A stretch of 64,000 nucleotides of DNA from Fidelibacterota bacterium. GTDB lineage: Bacteria; Fidelibacterota; Marinisomatia; Marinisomatales; SCKK01. Position numbers and translations under genes: made by a program. This document shows positions 1,664 through 20,720 of the stretch, piece after piece (positions within the stretch are counted from its first letter, which is position 1; the number at the start of each line of letters is the position of its first letter). The stretch covers positions 1 through 64,000 of the forward strand of contig SCKK01000016.1 in NCBI GenBank assembly GCA_004124475.1, in the 5' to 3' direction. The notes beneath the pieces are model-generated. The model was not told the DNA's origin and did not search any database. It saw nothing but the letters and a program-made list of their open reading frames with translations.

Positions 1664-1954
1664 ATGACTGATTCTTTCGCAGCCTGCAGGAAAACATCGA
1701 TACTGGTGCTTCGGGAAGAACAACTAATCTTTCATGTCTTTGGTGCATTAGCAGAATTTGAACGTGATATTATTCGAGAAAGAACACTGGCCGGTCTTGC
1801 TGCTGCGAGAGCAAGAGGTAATATTGGTGGAAGGCCTAGATTAATGAATGAATGGAAGATATCACTGGCAAAAGCCCCGTTGGACGACGATTCTAATACA
1901 GTTGAAGATCTATGTAAAACGCTTGGTGTTTCTAGAGCGACGTTGTATCAGTAA
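1664..1954 (+). pseudogene. Serine recombinase (Hin/Pin invertase-resolvase family) C-terminal remnant
   Basis: About 96 codons survive. The segment LIFHVFGALAEFERDIIRERT followed by GLAAARARG and GGRP is the characteristic end of the catalytic domain (helix E) and linker of small serine recombinases. A short helix-turn-helix follows (TVEDLCKTLGVSRATLYQ). The N-terminal third with the catalytic Ser and the Arg cluster is absent: the preceding residues (MTDSFAACRKTSILV) do not match the family. It cannot be active and marks an old mobile element or inversion system. Confidence 0.8.
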
Positions 1955-2326: not shown

Positions 2327-3184
2327 TCATAGATTTTCCTTAAAAAACTTCAATATTCGTTTGTTGTAATCCTCGGCCAACTGTCCGTGAAATAGATTTT
2401 CTTCAAACCAAAAATCTGCATTTGGATTATCCCTTAATGTTTCTTGAATTAGAAGAGCATGTTCAAAAGGTATCACTTGGTCATTTTTTGAGTGTATCAC
2501 TAGGATTGGTATTTCAAGACCCATAATACTTTCTACTGGTGAAACCTTTCTAATGGAGATTCCCAAGAAAATCTTTGACCAGACTCCTGTAAGATATCCA
2601 AGAGGGTACTTCAAGCCAGGAATCCGATAAAGTTCCTGAGTCATTAGATCGAGTCGAGCATAGCTTGATTCAGAAACTATCGCTTTTATTTCAGGTGCCT
2701 TTTTACAGGTCATCATTGCAACTGCACCACCAAGTGAAAATCCCCAGACACCTACTTCTTCAATCCCCCTGTCTTTCAAGAATCGAATTGCAGTCAAAAG
2801 GTCTTCCGTTTCTCGTGCACCGACTGTCGAAATTTTCCCCTCACTTTCTCCCATAGATCGGAAGTCGAATAGTAGAAGATTAAATTCACTGTTTAAAAAT
2901 GAAAGTGATGGTAATATATCTCCCTTATCAGCGGGATACCCGTGTAAAAGAATGAGCGTTTTTGCTTCGTTCTTAATATTTGGAATAAACCAACCATTCA
3001 ATATTATACCATCATTTGTAATGAATGAGACTTCCTCATAAACCAGATCAAGATCAGCTGGAGAAATATTCGAAATAATCTTCGGAGGTCTTATCGATGA
3101 ATAAAATCCAAAAAGGCTTAATAGAAGAACAAACGAGAGGATTATCGATATAACCAACACTGGTGATGGTTTAATTTCGGTCAT
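2327..3184 (-). CDS. Alpha/beta hydrolase, membrane-anchored
   Basis: 285 aa. Residues about 8-28 form one hydrophobic segment (VLVISIILSFVLLLSLFGFY), a signal anchor placing the enzyme on the outer face of the inner membrane. The oxyanion-side motif LILLHGYPADKG is followed by the nucleophile elbow GFSLGGA (Ser about 151), the acid in HSKNDQVIP and a catalytic His in LFHGQLAE. The layout matches BEM46/YtmA-like serine hydrolases (Abhydrolase/peptidase S9-like). The substrate is unknown. It is a monocistronic gene; the SelW-like gene lies 220 bp upstream of its start on the same strand. Confidence 0.88.
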   Translation of the reverse strand: MTEIKPSPVLVISIILSFVLLLSLFGFYSSIRPPKIISNISPADLDLVYEEVSFITNDGIILNGWFIPNIKNEAKTLILLHGYPADKGDILPSLSFLNSEFNLLLFDFRSMGESEGKISTVGARETEDLLTAIRFLKDRGIEEVGVWGFSLGGAVAMMTCKKAPEIKAIVSESSYARLDLMTQELYRIPGLKYPLGYLTGVWSKIFLGISIRKVSPVESIMGLEIPILVIHSKNDQVIPFEHALLIQETLRDNPNADFWFEENLFHGQLAEDYNKRILKFFKENL

Positions 3185-3407: not shown

Positions 3408-3638
3408 TCAATTAAGTTGTTGAATCAATTTGGTTATCTCATCTTTATGTGGAAACCTTCCCAATATTTTTCTTTTGGAGAATATCTTCTTGCCATCTAC
3501 TGTAACTTTGAAAACTCCCCCTCTACCTTTCACGAGTTCAACGATTATAGCATCAAGATTAGCTTTTAATTCTTCTTCCAAACTGGAAGCTTCAGCCAGG
3601 TAGTTTCAAGGTACGCAATATTCAATAGATACTTTCAT
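3408..3638 (-). CDS. SelW/Rdx-family selenoprotein with in-frame TGA (CxxU)
   Basis: 76 residues counted with selenocysteine. The frame starts at the ATG at 3638 (MKVSIEYCVP), meets TGA at 3608-3606 (codon 11), and then runs open (NYLAEASSLEEELKA, then VFKVTVDGKKIFSKRK) to TGA at 3410-3408. Y-C-x-x-U followed by NYL, the beta-strand FKVTVDGKKIFSK and the C-terminal helix are the layout of the Rdx/SelW thioredoxin-like family, in which CxxC or CxxU is the redox motif at this position. The purine-rich GAAGAG just before the ATG can act as ribosome-binding site. Ordinary gene callers split or drop this gene. Known: SelW-like selenoproteins occur in marine bacteria. Inferred: TGA is read as Sec here. 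A nonsense mutation of a Cys codon is the alternative. Confidence 0.82.
3575..3589 (-). promoter_or_regulatory. Candidate bacterial SECIS hairpin
   Basis: A perfect 6-bp stem CTTCCA/TGGAAG with loop GTT begins 17 nt after the in-frame TGA of the SelW-like gene, so its loop lies 23-25 nt downstream. Bacterial SECIS elements are short coding-region hairpins directly downstream of UGA with a G in the apical loop, bound by SelB. Position and loop fit. Sequence alone does not prove function, and an alternative pairing (CTGG with CCAG) competes. Confidence 0.5.
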
Positions 3639-3795: not shown

Positions 3796-3868
3796 TGGAG
3801 CCTATCGGGCTCGAACCGACGACCTACTGAATGCCATTCAGACGCTCTCCCAACTGTGCTCCGGCCCC
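3796..3868 (-). tRNA. tRNA-Ala (GGC)
   Basis: 73 nt cloverleaf with anticodon loop ATGGCAT (anticodon GGC, alanine), T arm GTCGG-TTCGAGC-CCGAT and discriminator A. The acceptor pairs over six positions, with a G-A mismatch at 7-66 and an A mismatch in the D stem, so it is somewhat divergent. No CCA is encoded. Confidence 0.85.
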
Positions 3869-6830: not shown

Positions 6831-9572
6831 ATGAGAAAAAAGATCGATTATTTATTATTTTGTATTATTTGGATAAGTCTGCAATCTTCCGTAAACGCAT
6901 CTGGTGTTGTCACACACCAACCGGAGATTCAGCATCCTGAAGGTCAACCACTAATAATTTTTGCCTTAGTATCATCAGAAGTTGAAATTAATGATGTCAG
7001 ACTGCTATACCGGAACGTAAAGGAAACCGGGTATATTGAAGTTTATTTGACAGCTTATGGAGATATGTGGCGGGGGGAAATTCCTGGTGAACATCTTTAT
7101 GGAGACGGTATTCAGTACTTCATTTCGTCAACATTGGCAGATGGTTCAATGATTACCTTCCCCGCAGATGAACCTGAATCATCCCCGATAACTGTCGAAA
7201 TTCAACTGCCCGTTGAAGAACCAGTGGTGGAGCATATTGATACAAAAATGGCTGTAACTTTAAGTGATGGGGATGAACAAATTCTCATTTTTAGTCCGGC
7301 TCCCGGTTCTAAGGTACCTTACGATGATGTTTATATCGCAGCTTCATTATTTAATGTTGATTCTATTGATATTGCTTCAATTCGAATGACGTTAGATAAC
7401 CAAGATGTGACACGCTCCTCCTCTGTAAGTAATGACCTTGTAACCTATGAGCCTTTTACCATGTCGTCTGGAGAACATACGGTTCGAATTGAAGCTCGAA
7501 CACTTAACAATCAAATTGTACCTCCAGCAACCTGGTCATTCAAAGTTATCAAAAAACGTGAAGAGGAAGTCGAACGGGAGTTCACTTATTCTGGCCGAAT
7601 TAATGGTGGTTATTCTTTGGATCAGATTGAAGACCAAACTCTATCAATTTCCAGAACTACCGCGTCATTTTCCGGTAATTGGAGATTCCTCCGATTTAAA
7701 ACGGATGCAAAACTGACATCGGAAGAAGATCCTTTCAAACAACCAAGAAACCGGTTTCGTTTTCATCTTGATGCAGGTAGATATTTTTCAATGAATTTGG
7801 GTGACTTTAATTCCCGCCTTTCTCGATTCACCCTTGATGGTAAACGTGTTCGGGGTGTAGATGTGGATTTAAAATTTGGATTGGTTAATCTTCACGTGGT
7901 GAGGGGAGAACTGGACCGCGCTATTCAGGGGCGTCTGGGCGCCGGGGAATCATACATATTCGAGGGTATTGATCCCGTAACGGATACCACTACAGGCATA
8001 ACGGAGTTCACATACAATCTCAATAGGAAAGGCTACACCTTCCAGAATGACATCTTCGCGGGGAGATTGAGTTTCGGTAGCGGAAAGGTATTCCAGCTTG
8101 GCTTCAACTGGCTAAAAGCGAAGGATGACATTGGTTCTGCGAAGCGAATTTTGGAAGATGCAAGAATCATCATTGATGAAGATTCTTCCGGACCAATTAC
8201 TCCGGACACTCTCACTTACGTAGAGTTAGATGAGTGGATTAATTCTACAAGTAACTATAGATTACTTCTGCCGGAGAAAGATTGGGGTGGGGATGATCCA
8301 CAGGATAATATTGTAATCGGTTCCGACATAAAGCTGTCTCTGTTTGGCCGAAAGATAGGTATGGAAGCTGGTTGGGCCTTCAGCATGTTGAACAAAGATA
8401 TCTGGGACGGGGCCATGTCCAAAGACGACATGGACGTGCTCTTGGATGACACGACAGATGGATTTATTGGGAGAACTTATGATGAGAATGGAGCTGTTGA
8501 TGAAGAAGGTATTTCGTTGGATAACATTCCAATCGATCCTGCCGACTGGGAGGACATTTTTGTAATTAATGAGAATATGGTACCTCTTATCCCTATTGAT
8601 CCCGATTCAACTCAGCTTAAAGATGACCTACTCACAGCAATATTAAATATGCCTTCACTTGCCTACAATTTTAAGGTGACAACTAATCTTTTCAATAACC
8701 AGTTTACACTCGAATATATTAAAGTTGGTCCTGAATTCAATTCCTTGGGGAATCCATACATTCAAAAAAATAACAGGGAATACACTATTTCAGATAGAGT
8801 CAGACTATTCAAAAATCGGCTTTTCGTCAATCTTATGTATAGACATCAGGATGATAACATCTTGAGAACTGTTACTAATGTTACTACTACGAACACATTA
8901 TCAGCTAATGTGAATATCTTCCCAGGACCCAATTTACCTTCTATTAATCTAAGTATACGTAACATGACACGTGCAAATGGTAAAGCTGTTTTTGATACAG
9001 TCAGTATTGATACAACTGATTTTGGTATTGTATATGAATTGGACGACTTGAGAGATTCAACCAATACCTTTAATGCAACAGTTGGACTTAGCTATAGGGT
9101 GAATCTTTTTGGGATGAATCATAACATATCAACAAACTTTATTTCTATCAAAAAACTGGATCTATTTAGCGACAGGGACACAACGTTTTCATCACCCGAC
9201 CTCAGTTCAACTGTTGTTACTATATCAATCGTTACACAATATTCATTTCCACTTAGGACGACTGCAGTAATATCGATTAATAACAGCGAATTTGGTCTTA
9301 ACGGTGTTTACGGTACACAAGGTATTTCGAATTTCAGCCTAAATGGAAGTTACGATCTGTTAAAAGGCAAGGTTAGAGCTATGGCTGGTTTGGACTTGAC
9401 AACAGGCTCCGGTAATGATGATTTTAGTCGATTCGGTATACGAGGAGGATTTACCTATCGACTCACAAATACATTAGGATTTAGGTTTGATTCTGAATTC
9501 CGTTCAAAAAGTACAAATGGTGATTCGAAAACGAGTACATTATTAAGAGCTACTCTTAATTATAGTTTTTAA
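6831..9572 (+). CDS. Large outer-membrane beta-barrel protein
   Basis: 913 aa. Signal peptide (MRKKIDYLLFCIIWISLQSSVNA), then an Ig-like periplasmic region to about 235 (FSPAPGSKVPYDDVYIAASL). From about 245 onward come amphipathic, aromatic-rich strands (YSGRINGGYSLDQ, FRFDSEFRS) ending in LRATLNYSF, with a C-terminal Phe as in outer-membrane barrels. No plug domain or TonB box is seen, so it is not a TonB-dependent receptor. The barrel interior includes long acidic loops (about 480-600). It is the last gene of the three-gene operon and probably the outer-membrane anchor or pore of that system. Family unknown. Confidence 0.75.
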   Translation: MRKKIDYLLFCIIWISLQSSVNASGVVTHQPEIQHPEGQPLIIFALVSSEVEINDVRLLYRNVKETGYIEVYLTAYGDMWRGEIPGEHLYGDGIQYFISSTLADGSMITFPADEPESSPITVEIQLPVEEPVVEHIDTKMAVTLSDGDEQILIFSPAPGSKVPYDDVYIAASLFNVDSIDIASIRMTLDNQDVTRSSSVSNDLVTYEPFTMSSGEHTVRIEARTLNNQIVPPATWSFKVIKKREEEVEREFTYSGRINGGYSLDQIEDQTLSISRTTASFSGNWRFLRFKTDAKLTSEEDPFKQPRNRFRFHLDAGRYFSMNLGDFNSRLSRFTLDGKRVRGVDVDLKFGLVNLHVVRGELDRAIQGRLGAGESYIFEGIDPVTDTTTGITEFTYNLNRKGYTFQNDIFAGRLSFGSGKVFQLGFNWLKAKDDIGSAKRILEDARIIIDEDSSGPITPDTLTYVELDEWINSTSNYRLLLPEKDWGGDDPQDNIVIGSDIKLSLFGRKIGMEAGWAFSMLNKDIWDGAMSKDDMDVLLDDTTDGFIGRTYDENGAVDEEGISLDNIPIDPADWEDIFVINENMVPLIPIDPDSTQLKDDLLTAILNMPSLAYNFKVTTNLFNNQFTLEYIKVGPEFNSLGNPYIQKNNREYTISDRVRLFKNRLFVNLMYRHQDDNILRTVTNVTTTNTLSANVNIFPGPNLPSINLSIRNMTRANGKAVFDTVSIDTTDFGIVYELDDLRDSTNTFNATVGLSYRVNLFGMNHNISTNFISIKKLDLFSDRDTTFSSPDLSSTVVTISIVTQYSFPLRTTAVISINNSEFGLNGVYGTQGISNFSLNGSYDLLKGKVRAMAGLDLTTGSGNDDFSRFGIRGGFTYRLTNTLGFRFDSEFRSKSTNGDSKTSTLLRATLNYSF

Positions 9573-9913: not shown

Positions 9914-10429
9914 ATGAAAATTTCCGATACAGGCAAGATTTTTTCTATTATTTTTTTTTCAATTATATTGCTGCACTCGCAAACGAATAAATTATTTTGG
10001 GATGGGGAGGACTGGTTGCGACTGACTAAGGAATCTCAAGGATACCCTGAATTTGAATATTTAATGAAGGCATCTTATGTCAATGGAATTTTAGATGGAA
10101 GGTTGTATGACTATTTTACAACGTGGGCAATAAATTCCGGGTTAGCTGATTCACTATTTGCAGAGACTGTAGACTATTTAAGGACTTCAGAAATAATTAG
10201 AGGGCTGGATCACTTTTATGAAGATCCATTAAATGATTATATTCCGGTGATTTCAGCCATTGTGATTGTTAATATGTACGGCGAACGACAACCTATTGAA
10301 ATGATTGAAGCATTTAAAGAAAAGAGCAAGGAATGGATTAACCATCTAACAATACAACTACAGCAGGAAGATATGTTTCGATTAATGGAAGAGAAACGGA
10401 AGAAACATAGGGAGAAGATTAAAGATTAG
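9914..10429 (+). CDS. Secreted protein, weakly Rap1a/Tai-like
   Basis: 171 aa. Signal peptide (IFSIIFFSIILLHSQ), then a helical domain with W-LRLTKES, YVNGILDGRLYDYF, and a charged C-terminal tail (RLMEEKRKKHREKIKD). The pattern W..L....G-(Y/F)-..GxxDG is reminiscent of Rap1a/Tai immunity-like domains, but the match is weak and I would not assign a function. Monocistronic; it converges with the next gene, whose stop lies about 10 bp away. Confidence 0.65.
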   Translation: MKISDTGKIFSIIFFSIILLHSQTNKLFWDGEDWLRLTKESQGYPEFEYLMKASYVNGILDGRLYDYFTTWAINSGLADSLFAETVDYLRTSEIIRGLDHFYEDPLNDYIPVISAIVIVNMYGERQPIEMIEAFKEKSKEWINHLTIQLQQEDMFRLMEEKRKKHREKIKD

Positions 10430-18223: not shown

Positions 18224-18290
18224 CAGGCTTTTCACTATTCACGTTTCCCCTATTGCATTCTGTTCAATTTCTGTGTAATTTCCTACTAAG

Positions 18291-18377
18291 CAGGGGTGCT
18301 GTTCTGAAATAAGTCGGAGTGGCTGAGATTAAACCCTTGATACCTGATCTGGATAATGCCAGCGTAGGGAGGCAACT
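18291..18377 (+). promoter_or_regulatory. TPP riboswitch (THI element)
   Basis: The conserved core GGCTGAGATTAAACCCTTGA, then CCTGATCTGGATAATGCC and AGCGTAGGGAGGC, matches the TPP aptamer almost base for base. An upstream GGGGTGCTG arm completes the P1/P2 side. The aptamer runs into the ribosome-binding site of the receptor gene (ATG at 18378), suggesting translational control: thiamine pyrophosphate would hide AGGGAGG. Confidence 0.95.
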
Positions 18378-20720
18378 ATGATTAAAGAAAACAACTTCCT
18401 CTTCAGACTGAAGGGGATTTTTATATTTATTTTCATTTTTAATATTAACTATGCTCAACCTGATAATGTTGTGGTCGCAAGAGGTAAGGTCTTGGATAGT
18501 ATAACCGAAAATCCCATATCCAATGCGAATGTTTATAGTGATGATATGGGAACGGTGACTGATGAACAAGGGGAGTTTTTACTTCGAGTTCCTAAAAATA
18601 GTGAAATTACCATATCTGTTATCGGTTATGATATAAAAACCATACTGGCATCGGATTCCTATATCACTATTTATTTGGAAAAAGTAGTCATAAAGGGTGA
18701 GGAAGTAGTGATCCTGGCGAATCGGGCTATTGCAGGGGTGACTCCAGTAGCATTTTCCACACTGACTCAAGAAGAGATATCCATTTACTATACGGTTGAG
18801 GATGTGCCAATGATACTTGCGACTGAACCCGGTGTGTATGCCTATAGCGAGAGCGGGAATGGAACAGGCTATTCCTACATCTCAATACGTGGGTTCGACC
18901 AGAGCCGGATTTCCGTAATGTTAGACAACGTACCTCTTAATGATAATGAAAGCCACCAGGTTTATTGGGTGGACCACGGCGATATCTTATCAGATGCAAA
19001 GGATGTTCAAATACAAAGAGGAATCGGAAATAGTCTTTATGGTTCAGCAGCTTTTGGTGGTTCTATCAACATTCTGACGCAGATTGCATCAAGTAAGCAA
19101 GAATTATCAGCTACAGCTACCGCTGGTTCATTCAATACCACAAAATATCGCCTGAAATTCAATTCCGGTACAACCTTTGGGGAGAACCTAAGCCTGACAG
19201 CGCGAATGACACAAATTCAATCCGATGGATATCGTGATTTTCACAAAAGTTTGCAGCGAAGCTTGTTTATTGGTGTTGAGCATCACCGGAATAATATGAC
19301 CAATCAGCTCAGAGCTACTATCGGTTACGAAAATACTGGTCTTCTTTGGGATGGCATTGCCGCATCTGATATCAACGATAGGAAGAAGCGCCGGATAGGT
19401 TACAAATCCTACACCGATGATTTTTTACAACAAATCTATTCACTGAATACGTTTTACCGATTTAGTGATGATGTCACATTCCATAATGTTGCATATATGG
19501 TTCGAGGTTCCGGTTATTATGAGGTGTTCAAATATGATAGGGATTTATATTCTTATAGTCTGGATATGGATGATGTGTACTCAGACAGTATGGAGCTTGA
19601 AATGGAAACCGACCTGTTGCGTCGAAAATGGATTGTGAATCAATATTATGGAATTGTGCCCACGGTTACTTGGTCTAAGGATCGGTTTCGCCTCGATTTT
19701 GGTGGAGAAATCCGGTTTTACACAGGAGACCATTTTGGAGAAGTAACCGATTTTTCCAACGAAGCTTTGGCAGAAAAGTTTGGAAATAACTGGTATAAAT
19801 ATTACAAGTACATTGGCACAAAACAAACGGTGAGCGGATTTGTTCACCTGGTTTATTCGTTAACTTCACGATTGAAATTAATTGGGGATATTTTATATCA
19901 GGGTCATCGATGGAATTTAGATCAGAAAAAAATCGGTCATGCTGCAGGTCATCAACTATCCGCTGACTGGGATTTTCTAAATCCTCGCTTTGGCTTAATA
20001 TACGGTATCACCGATAACCTGTCCTTTTTCGGGAATTATGGACAAGCACAAAAAGAACCATCGGATGACCAGATCATTGAAGCGGATGATGTTTGGAGTG
20101 AACCTGTTATGGCGGCAGCAGAAGTTATTGACAATTTCGAATTAGGTGCCAACTACTTTTCCGGGAAAATAACTGCAGATCTAAATGTATATCGGATAAA
20201 CTATGACAACGAGCAGTTAAAAAATATTGATGTAGAGCAGGAGGGAGAGTATAATTATTTTTCAGCGGATGGGACGGTTCACGAAGGATTAGAATTTGAA
20301 TTGAAATACAAAGTTAGTCCACAGTTGAAGCTGGGCGTGAATGGAACCCTATATCGTAACCTTTTCAAAAATGGTATCTATAATGGGAATTCATTGCCAA
20401 ATGTACCACAGCAGTTGTTTAATGCGTCAGTACAATACAGGTTGATGGAAAATCTAAACATATTTTCTAATTTACGAATGGTTGGAAGACAGTATATCGA
20501 CAATGAAAATACCGAGGAAGGGGTTATCGAGTCTTTTTCTGTGGTAAATTTGGGTATGAAATATGGAATAGGTCCCATAGTACTCAATGTGAAAGTAAAT
20601 AACGTTTTTGATACACTTTATTCCACATTTGGATATGGCTATGAGTGGGACGGTTATTGGGCTTATTACTGGCCTGGCGCTACACGCAACTACTATGTGA
20701 CGCTGACCTATTCTCTATAA
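18378..20720 (+). CDS. TonB-dependent receptor, probable thiamine importer
   Basis: 780 aa. Signal peptide (IFIFIFIFNINYAQ), a carboxypeptidase-regulatory-like domain (about 30-105; GKVLDSITENPISNANVYSD), a plug domain (about 115-235; GVYAYSES, YISIRGFDQSRISVMLDNVPLND, LYGSAAFGGSINILTQ) and a 22-strand-type barrel ending in RNYYVTLTYSL. The TPP riboswitch directly upstream implies uptake of thiamine, its phosphates or a precursor (inference from known THI-element regulons, in which TonB receptors are regulated this way in Bacteroidetes). The inner-membrane partner is not in the window. Confidence 0.93.
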   Translation: MIKENNFLFRLKGIFIFIFIFNINYAQPDNVVVARGKVLDSITENPISNANVYSDDMGTVTDEQGEFLLRVPKNSEITISVIGYDIKTILASDSYITIYLEKVVIKGEEVVILANRAIAGVTPVAFSTLTQEEISIYYTVEDVPMILATEPGVYAYSESGNGTGYSYISIRGFDQSRISVMLDNVPLNDNESHQVYWVDHGDILSDAKDVQIQRGIGNSLYGSAAFGGSINILTQIASSKQELSATATAGSFNTTKYRLKFNSGTTFGENLSLTARMTQIQSDGYRDFHKSLQRSLFIGVEHHRNNMTNQLRATIGYENTGLLWDGIAASDINDRKKRRIGYKSYTDDFLQQIYSLNTFYRFSDDVTFHNVAYMVRGSGYYEVFKYDRDLYSYSLDMDDVYSDSMELEMETDLLRRKWIVNQYYGIVPTVTWSKDRFRLDFGGEIRFYTGDHFGEVTDFSNEALAEKFGNNWYKYYKYIGTKQTVSGFVHLVYSLTSRLKLIGDILYQGHRWNLDQKKIGHAAGHQLSADWDFLNPRFGLIYGITDNLSFFGNYGQAQKEPSDDQIIEADDVWSEPVMAAAEVIDNFELGANYFSGKITADLNVYRINYDNEQLKNIDVEQEGEYNYFSADGTVHEGLEFELKYKVSPQLKLGVNGTLYRNLFKNGIYNGNSLPNVPQQLFNASVQYRLMENLNIFSNLRMVGRQYIDNENTEEGVIESFSVVNLGMKYGIGPIVLNVKVNNVFDTLYSTFGYGYEWDGYWAYYWPGATRNYYVTLTYSL

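Follow-up and report, generated by a model that had tools for sequence, protein, structure and literature searches.

A predicted SelW-like selenoprotein gene with an in-frame TGA and a covarying bacterial SECIS hairpin in a Neomarinimicrobiota genome

In the Sargasso Sea data no selenoprotein group was larger than the SelW-like proteins with a CxxU motif (PMC1088965). In the GOS data SelW-like was the most abundant marine selenoprotein family, with 427 Sec versus 56 Cys sequences (PMC2398784), and a 2026 review lists SelW-like proteins as CxxU proteins under PF10262 (PMC13188914). From the literature on Marinimicrobia and selenocysteine, PMC8318568 does not mention SelW. The initial annotation of the locus described here had pointed out that SelW-like selenoproteins exist in marine bacteria. 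Our locus lies in a window, i.e. the whole analysed stretch of 64,000 nucleotides, on contig C14 of the 3.15 Mb genome of a marine Neomarinimicrobiota bacterium (77 contigs, 95% complete). With the bacterial SelW-like selenoproteins of PF10262 it shares the family, the CxxU motif, the predicted Sec position and a bSECIS whose small loop contains a G. It differs by its origin from a new species and by being a divergent second paralogue, and is the same in kind. We consider it almost certain that the locus is a genuine SelW-like selenoprotein gene, in which Sec would be inserted at UGA by means of a bSECIS, SelB and Sec-tRNA-Sec, yielding a small redox protein. Coordinates are summarized in Table 1.

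Table 1. Features of the selW locus and its surroundings (window coordinates)
Feature	Position	Strand	Remarks
selW-like (Rdx family) gene, predicted selenoprotein	3408..3638	-	76 codons + TGA stop; ATG 3638-3636
In-frame TGA, codon 11, probably Sec (U of C-V-P-U)	3606..3608	-	conserved TGA in relatives
Terminal TGA stop of selW	3408..3410	-	not Sec: no family sequence past stop
Predicted bacterial SECIS hairpin CUUCCA-GUU-UGGAAG	3575..3589	-	6 bp, loop G first, UGA-to-loop 22 nt
Alpha/beta hydrolase gene, downstream of selW	2327..3184	-	counterpart in genus mate G001 with about 70% DNA identity
Degenerate second copy of tRNA-Ala(GGC), directly upstream of selW	3796..3868	-	Rfam 40.9 bits, missed by ARAGORN
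Serine resolvase fragment	1664..1954	+	PF00239 C-terminal part + HTH_7

Translation of the minus strand with TGA read as Sec gave the product MKVSIEYCVPUNYLAEASSLEEELKANLDAIIVELVKGRGGVFKVTVDGKKIFSKRKILGRFPHKDEITKLIQQLN. The initial annotation had proposed an Rdx protein of 76 residues with TGA at codon 11, a C-V-P-U motif and a family pattern continuing beyond the TGA. All of this was found: the motif is seen directly in the translation, the product scored above the cutoffs of Pfam Rdx PF10262 (64.6 bits, cutoff 22.6), NCBIfam TIGR02174 (56.4 bits, cutoff 34.2) and NCBIfam NF041051 (90.8 bits, cutoff 88), and the PF10262 match extended from residue 2 to residue 73 of 76. The locus is a confirmed CxxU member of the Rdx/SelW-like family (PF10262, TIGR02174). 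The catalytic and core motifs C8, U11, GGV and SK were retained, while usual family residues were exchanged at P15 (to A), R16 (to E) and E44 (to K). Reading the locus with translation table 11 left only a fragment of 57 amino acids with a TTG start (3408-3581). The claim that any standard annotation misses the gene is only partly right: this fragment is called, and the selenoproteins of this family are covered by curated models. A sequence search of the PDB returned SelW-type structures (2fa8, E 2.6e-8). The AlphaFold2 model reached a mean pLDDT of 90, with strand 1 at residues 2-8, helix 1 at residues 14-27 and C8-V-P-U11 between them. As best PDB match the SelW-related 2fa8 (TM 0.89) was obtained, and 2ojl gave a TM of 0.93. 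Scanning the window for further hidden selenoprotein genes with Cys beside Sec yielded, apart from selW, only one likely chance candidate at 8389.

The presence of selA, selB, selC (tRNA-Sec) and selD had been suggested as a check on Sec usage, and all four were found in the same genome. Profile searches located selA at C25:34889-36232 (530 bits), selB at C25:39631-41490 (349 bits), with 4.7 kb between the two gene starts, and selD at C16:58135-59061 (387 bits). The selD gene carries an in-frame TGA of its own, read as Sec in GSGUASK. A single tRNA-Sec with the anticodon TCA was detected at C69:4499-4590 (58.7 bits). A second selW with TGA resides on contig C67. Moreover, in-frame TGA codons were observed in three genes of the AhpC/TSA type, one Prx-like (KANTPGU), one Trx-like (FFASWUPVCAPEF) and a third one (FNRGYYUPKD), in all cases in the position expected for the redox residue or close to it. 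For this genome at least six genes with Sec are predicted. Window selW supports the use of the 21st amino acid by the organism and adds a gene that table-11 gene calling shortens.

The in-frame TGA was compared with the corresponding codon of related genes. Rdx matches were obtained in 144 of the 245 genomes of the phylum, and all those spanning the active-site codon contained exactly one TGA each. Among the best 80 relatives from other sequenced genomes, which include Desulfobacterota, Calditrichota, Gemmatimonadota, Planctomycetota, Bacillota and others, the codon was TGA in 79 cases and TGC in one. Distant homologues carry CxxC in place of CxxU. Among the matches listed, a family with small genomes (f9, 24 species) showed neither Rdx nor selA above the cutoff, which would fit a joint loss of the two.

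Some relatives showed individual features. The sole close relative with TGC, from a Myxococcales MAG (JAJYLH010000026.1, 3001-3198), has kept all five of the hairpin pairs that were counted, possibly a SECIS fossil after a recent change from Sec to Cys. A locus of 6.2 kb in a Bacillota MAG (JAMNXV010000118.1) carries two different TGA-containing SelW genes. In four SelW genes with TGA from Gammaproteobacteria (L104, L110, L129, L135) the hairpin is longer, stronger and nearer to the TGA, and lies outside the common register.

A 6-bp hairpin with a G-containing loop had been reported 17-31 nt after the TGA and was found exactly there. For its scoring a bSECIS model was employed (PMC13188914), which asks for a loop of 3-9 nt with G within the first two positions, a stem of 4-16 bp, a UGA-to-loop distance of 16-37 nt and a minimum free energy of at most -7.5 kcal/mol. 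The hairpin agreed with the model in loop size, stem length, G position and distance, but not in energy, with -6.2 kcal/mol for the core hairpin. Folded in isolation, a competing structure scored -6.9 versus -6.2 kcal/mol; with at least 6 nt after the UGA hidden by the ribosome, the SECIS hairpin was the only structure predicted. The core hairpins of the SelW family showed a median of -6.9 kcal/mol and only 44% reached -7.5, which makes this cutoff a poor filter for SelW hairpins, and we take it as a heuristic rather than a defining feature. Standalone folding energy was rejected as evidence for the hairpin (z-score of -0.27 for the window copy). Of all 2,689 TGAs that the window contains, 3.0% are followed by an equally good hairpin at a position allowed by the model, and the hairpin taken alone is therefore weak evidence. 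An Rfam search at this locus gave no bSECIS match.

Stronger evidence came from the relatives. For 33 sequences of the phylum the covariation of the stem pairs was 0.306 versus 0.087 after shuffling, and for 117 sequences across phyla 0.500 versus 0.155 (slid controls at most 0.139); none of 500 shuffles reached the score in either set. The strongest covarying pair lies between the wobble positions of codons 17 and 21. In sequences with Ala/Ala (both GCN) these wobble bases paired in 70 of 72 cases, compared to 32 expected and a maximum of 49 in 100,000 shuffles. As the bases are synonymous, selection on the protein offers no explanation. Shuffling takes no account of how the sequences are related, but six different pair types indicate many separate events. 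In window selW all six stem pairs are intact with the S/E type of compensation, while in three distant CxxC Rdx genes from plasmid loci, inspected at the DNA level, the hairpin is absent and only 1-2 of 5 pairs form. Conservation and covariation in relatives lift the hairpin beyond chance, and we regard this comparative evidence as decisive for its interpretation as a bacterial SECIS.

The neighbouring stem pair is formed by position 1 of codon 18 and position 2 of codon 21. In 123 sequences, with counts inflated by shared ancestry, residues 18/21 were Ala/Ala with a G-C pair in 60, Ser/Glu with U-A in 31 (including the window copy), Ser/Gly with U-G in 6, Val/Thr with G-C in 4 and Leu/Arg with C-G in 2 (phage), besides few others, some of them unpaired. 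The combination Ala/Glu occurred in none of the 123. In the simplest reading, RNA pairing would restrict which residues can coexist at these two positions.

From these data the following course of decoding is proposed. When the ribosome arrives at codon 11, the UGA, the hairpin behind it would recruit SelB carrying Sec-tRNA-Sec. The latter would be derived from the selC tRNA, with SelA charging it and SelD providing the selenophosphate. After insertion of Sec, translation would run on to the second TGA and release a thioredoxin-like protein of 76 residues, in which the loop from strand 1 to helix 1 would hold Cys-8 and Sec-11 as a redox-active pair. By analogy, SelW probably acts as a small thiol/selenol oxidoreductase on peroxide or disulfide substrates. 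The predicted insertion of Sec at codon 11, as proposed in the initial annotation, is well supported by selA, selB, selD and tRNA-Sec, by the conservation of the TGA and by the covariation of the hairpin.

The two selW genes of the genome share 47% identity, and an origin of the window copy by recent duplication of the other one is unlikely. In the tree the copy on contig C67 grouped with its orthologue from the genus mate G001, which in turn is identical to SelW of Candidatus Neomarinimicrobiota MAG B71T3L11. The branch of the window copy was long, with 0.6 changes per column. Its nearest sequences by identity were SelW proteins of Desulfobacterota (about 60%), and the best tree joined it to these by a branch without support. 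When placements with Desulfobacterota, with family f13 and with the main clade of the phylum were compared on 77 columns, they were not distinguished, with AU p-values of 0.72, 0.35 and 0.25 for three alternatives. Window selW may thus have been transferred horizontally. The genus mate (93% complete) contains only the other selW copy; its counterpart of the downstream hydrolase gene has no selW within 1.8 kb. Compared to the intact copies (G000:C72, G001:C56), the decayed tRNA-Ala differs by four substitutions, one of which affects the conserved T of position 8, and the similarity covers about 30 bp upstream and stops at the 3' end of the tRNA. The resolvase fragment is a sign of past mobile-element activity. 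As the window copy is divergent, absent from the genus mate and adjoins a decayed tRNA-Ala duplicate, an insertion beside a tRNA gene may have brought it in, with the decayed tRNA-Ala as a possible scar. Relaxed selection on window selW is possible, given its long branch and the loss of usual residues. Elsewhere in the window a TPP riboswitch was detected at 18282-18387 (+) with 64.5 bits, above the gathering score.

Divergence and location of the extra selW also bear on a different explanation, namely that it is a decaying duplicate, a pseudogene whose TGA is merely inherited and whose protein the cell no longer makes or requires. The long branch, several usually conserved positions off consensus, the absence from the genus mate and the adjacent tRNA-Ala pseudogene would all fit. 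However, the frame is intact through 76 codons, C8, U11, GGV and SK are all in place, the AlphaFold model is confident and 6 of 6 stem pairs persist with compensation of the S/E type, and we consider decay improbable. Far less probable still is an error of sequencing or assembly, with TGC or TGT (Cys) as true codon in an ordinary CxxC Rdx gene. A one-base difference would suffice, and the data are presumably of MAG quality. Nevertheless, the same TGA stands in the second copy of this genome, in the genus mate and in all spanning matches of the phylum. A Cys gene would have no reason to keep a functional SECIS, and distant Cys homologues are without the hairpin. With TGA in essentially every relative checked, a base-call error at 3608-3606 is not credible and we rate it as very unlikely.

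Just as little weight was given to a reassigned TGA or leaky read-through with Trp or Cys instead of Sec insertion. Formally, any read-through would yield the same frame, but selW itself terminates in TGA, the genome holds a full Sec system including a tRNA-Sec with TCA anticodon, unrelated genes in this genome have TGA where the redox residue is encoded, and the hairpin covaries. A selenoprotein gene with Sec at codon 11 is the reading we retain.

SelW-like genes with in-frame TGA and intact hairpin were also encountered on three viral contigs: IMGVR_UViG_3300025127_000147 (222-452), IMGVR_UViG_3300030419_004277 (10001-10231) and IMGVR_UViG_3300030107_003993 (939-1166). The viral stems differ from each other by compensation (CUCUUA/UAAGAG versus CUCUCA/UGAGAG). 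On the first contig a polynucleotide kinase lies near the gene, as does a phage endolysin (phrog_315, E 1e-50), and the second contig has matches to an HNH endonuclease and a DNA methyltransferase. Among 20 proteins tested from the viral contigs none was a structural phage protein, and no close SelW was found in the plasmid and phage collections of GenBank. The stretches examined on the three contigs yielded no tRNA-Sec, so the Sec machinery of the host would be needed, and the question arises whether phages exploit the selenocysteine system of their hosts. It is quite possible, if somewhat short of probable, that the selW SECIS couples residues 18 and 21 via RNA pairing rather than protein contact and that the unit is mobile, having reached phages and, as the extra copy beside the tRNA-Ala scar, this genome. 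With its synonymous wobble pairing and two residues covarying through the stem, the SelW family would offer a clear example of how a signal in the RNA shapes a protein.

Compared to known systems, window selW is a new example of a gene kind known for long, and its novelty is modest. The product exceeds the curated cutoff of NF041051, the SelT/SelW/SelH family (seleno)protein of Campylobacterota type; the model is named after Campylobacterota, whereas window SelW stems from Neomarinimicrobiota and is nearest to SelW of the Desulfobacterota type. The Cys-containing Rdx structures 2fa8, 2ojl, 2obk, 2oka, 2p0g and 3dex have the same fold (TM-score 0.78-0.93, query length), but differ by CxxC versus CxxU and by their greater length of about 100 amino acids. 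Mouse selenoprotein W (2npb) has the SelW fold in common with our model (TM-score 0.67), and the CxxU motif as well. In mammalian selenoprotein W a eukaryotic SECIS is located in the 3' UTR, whereas in window selW the predicted SECIS lies within the coding region just after the UGA.
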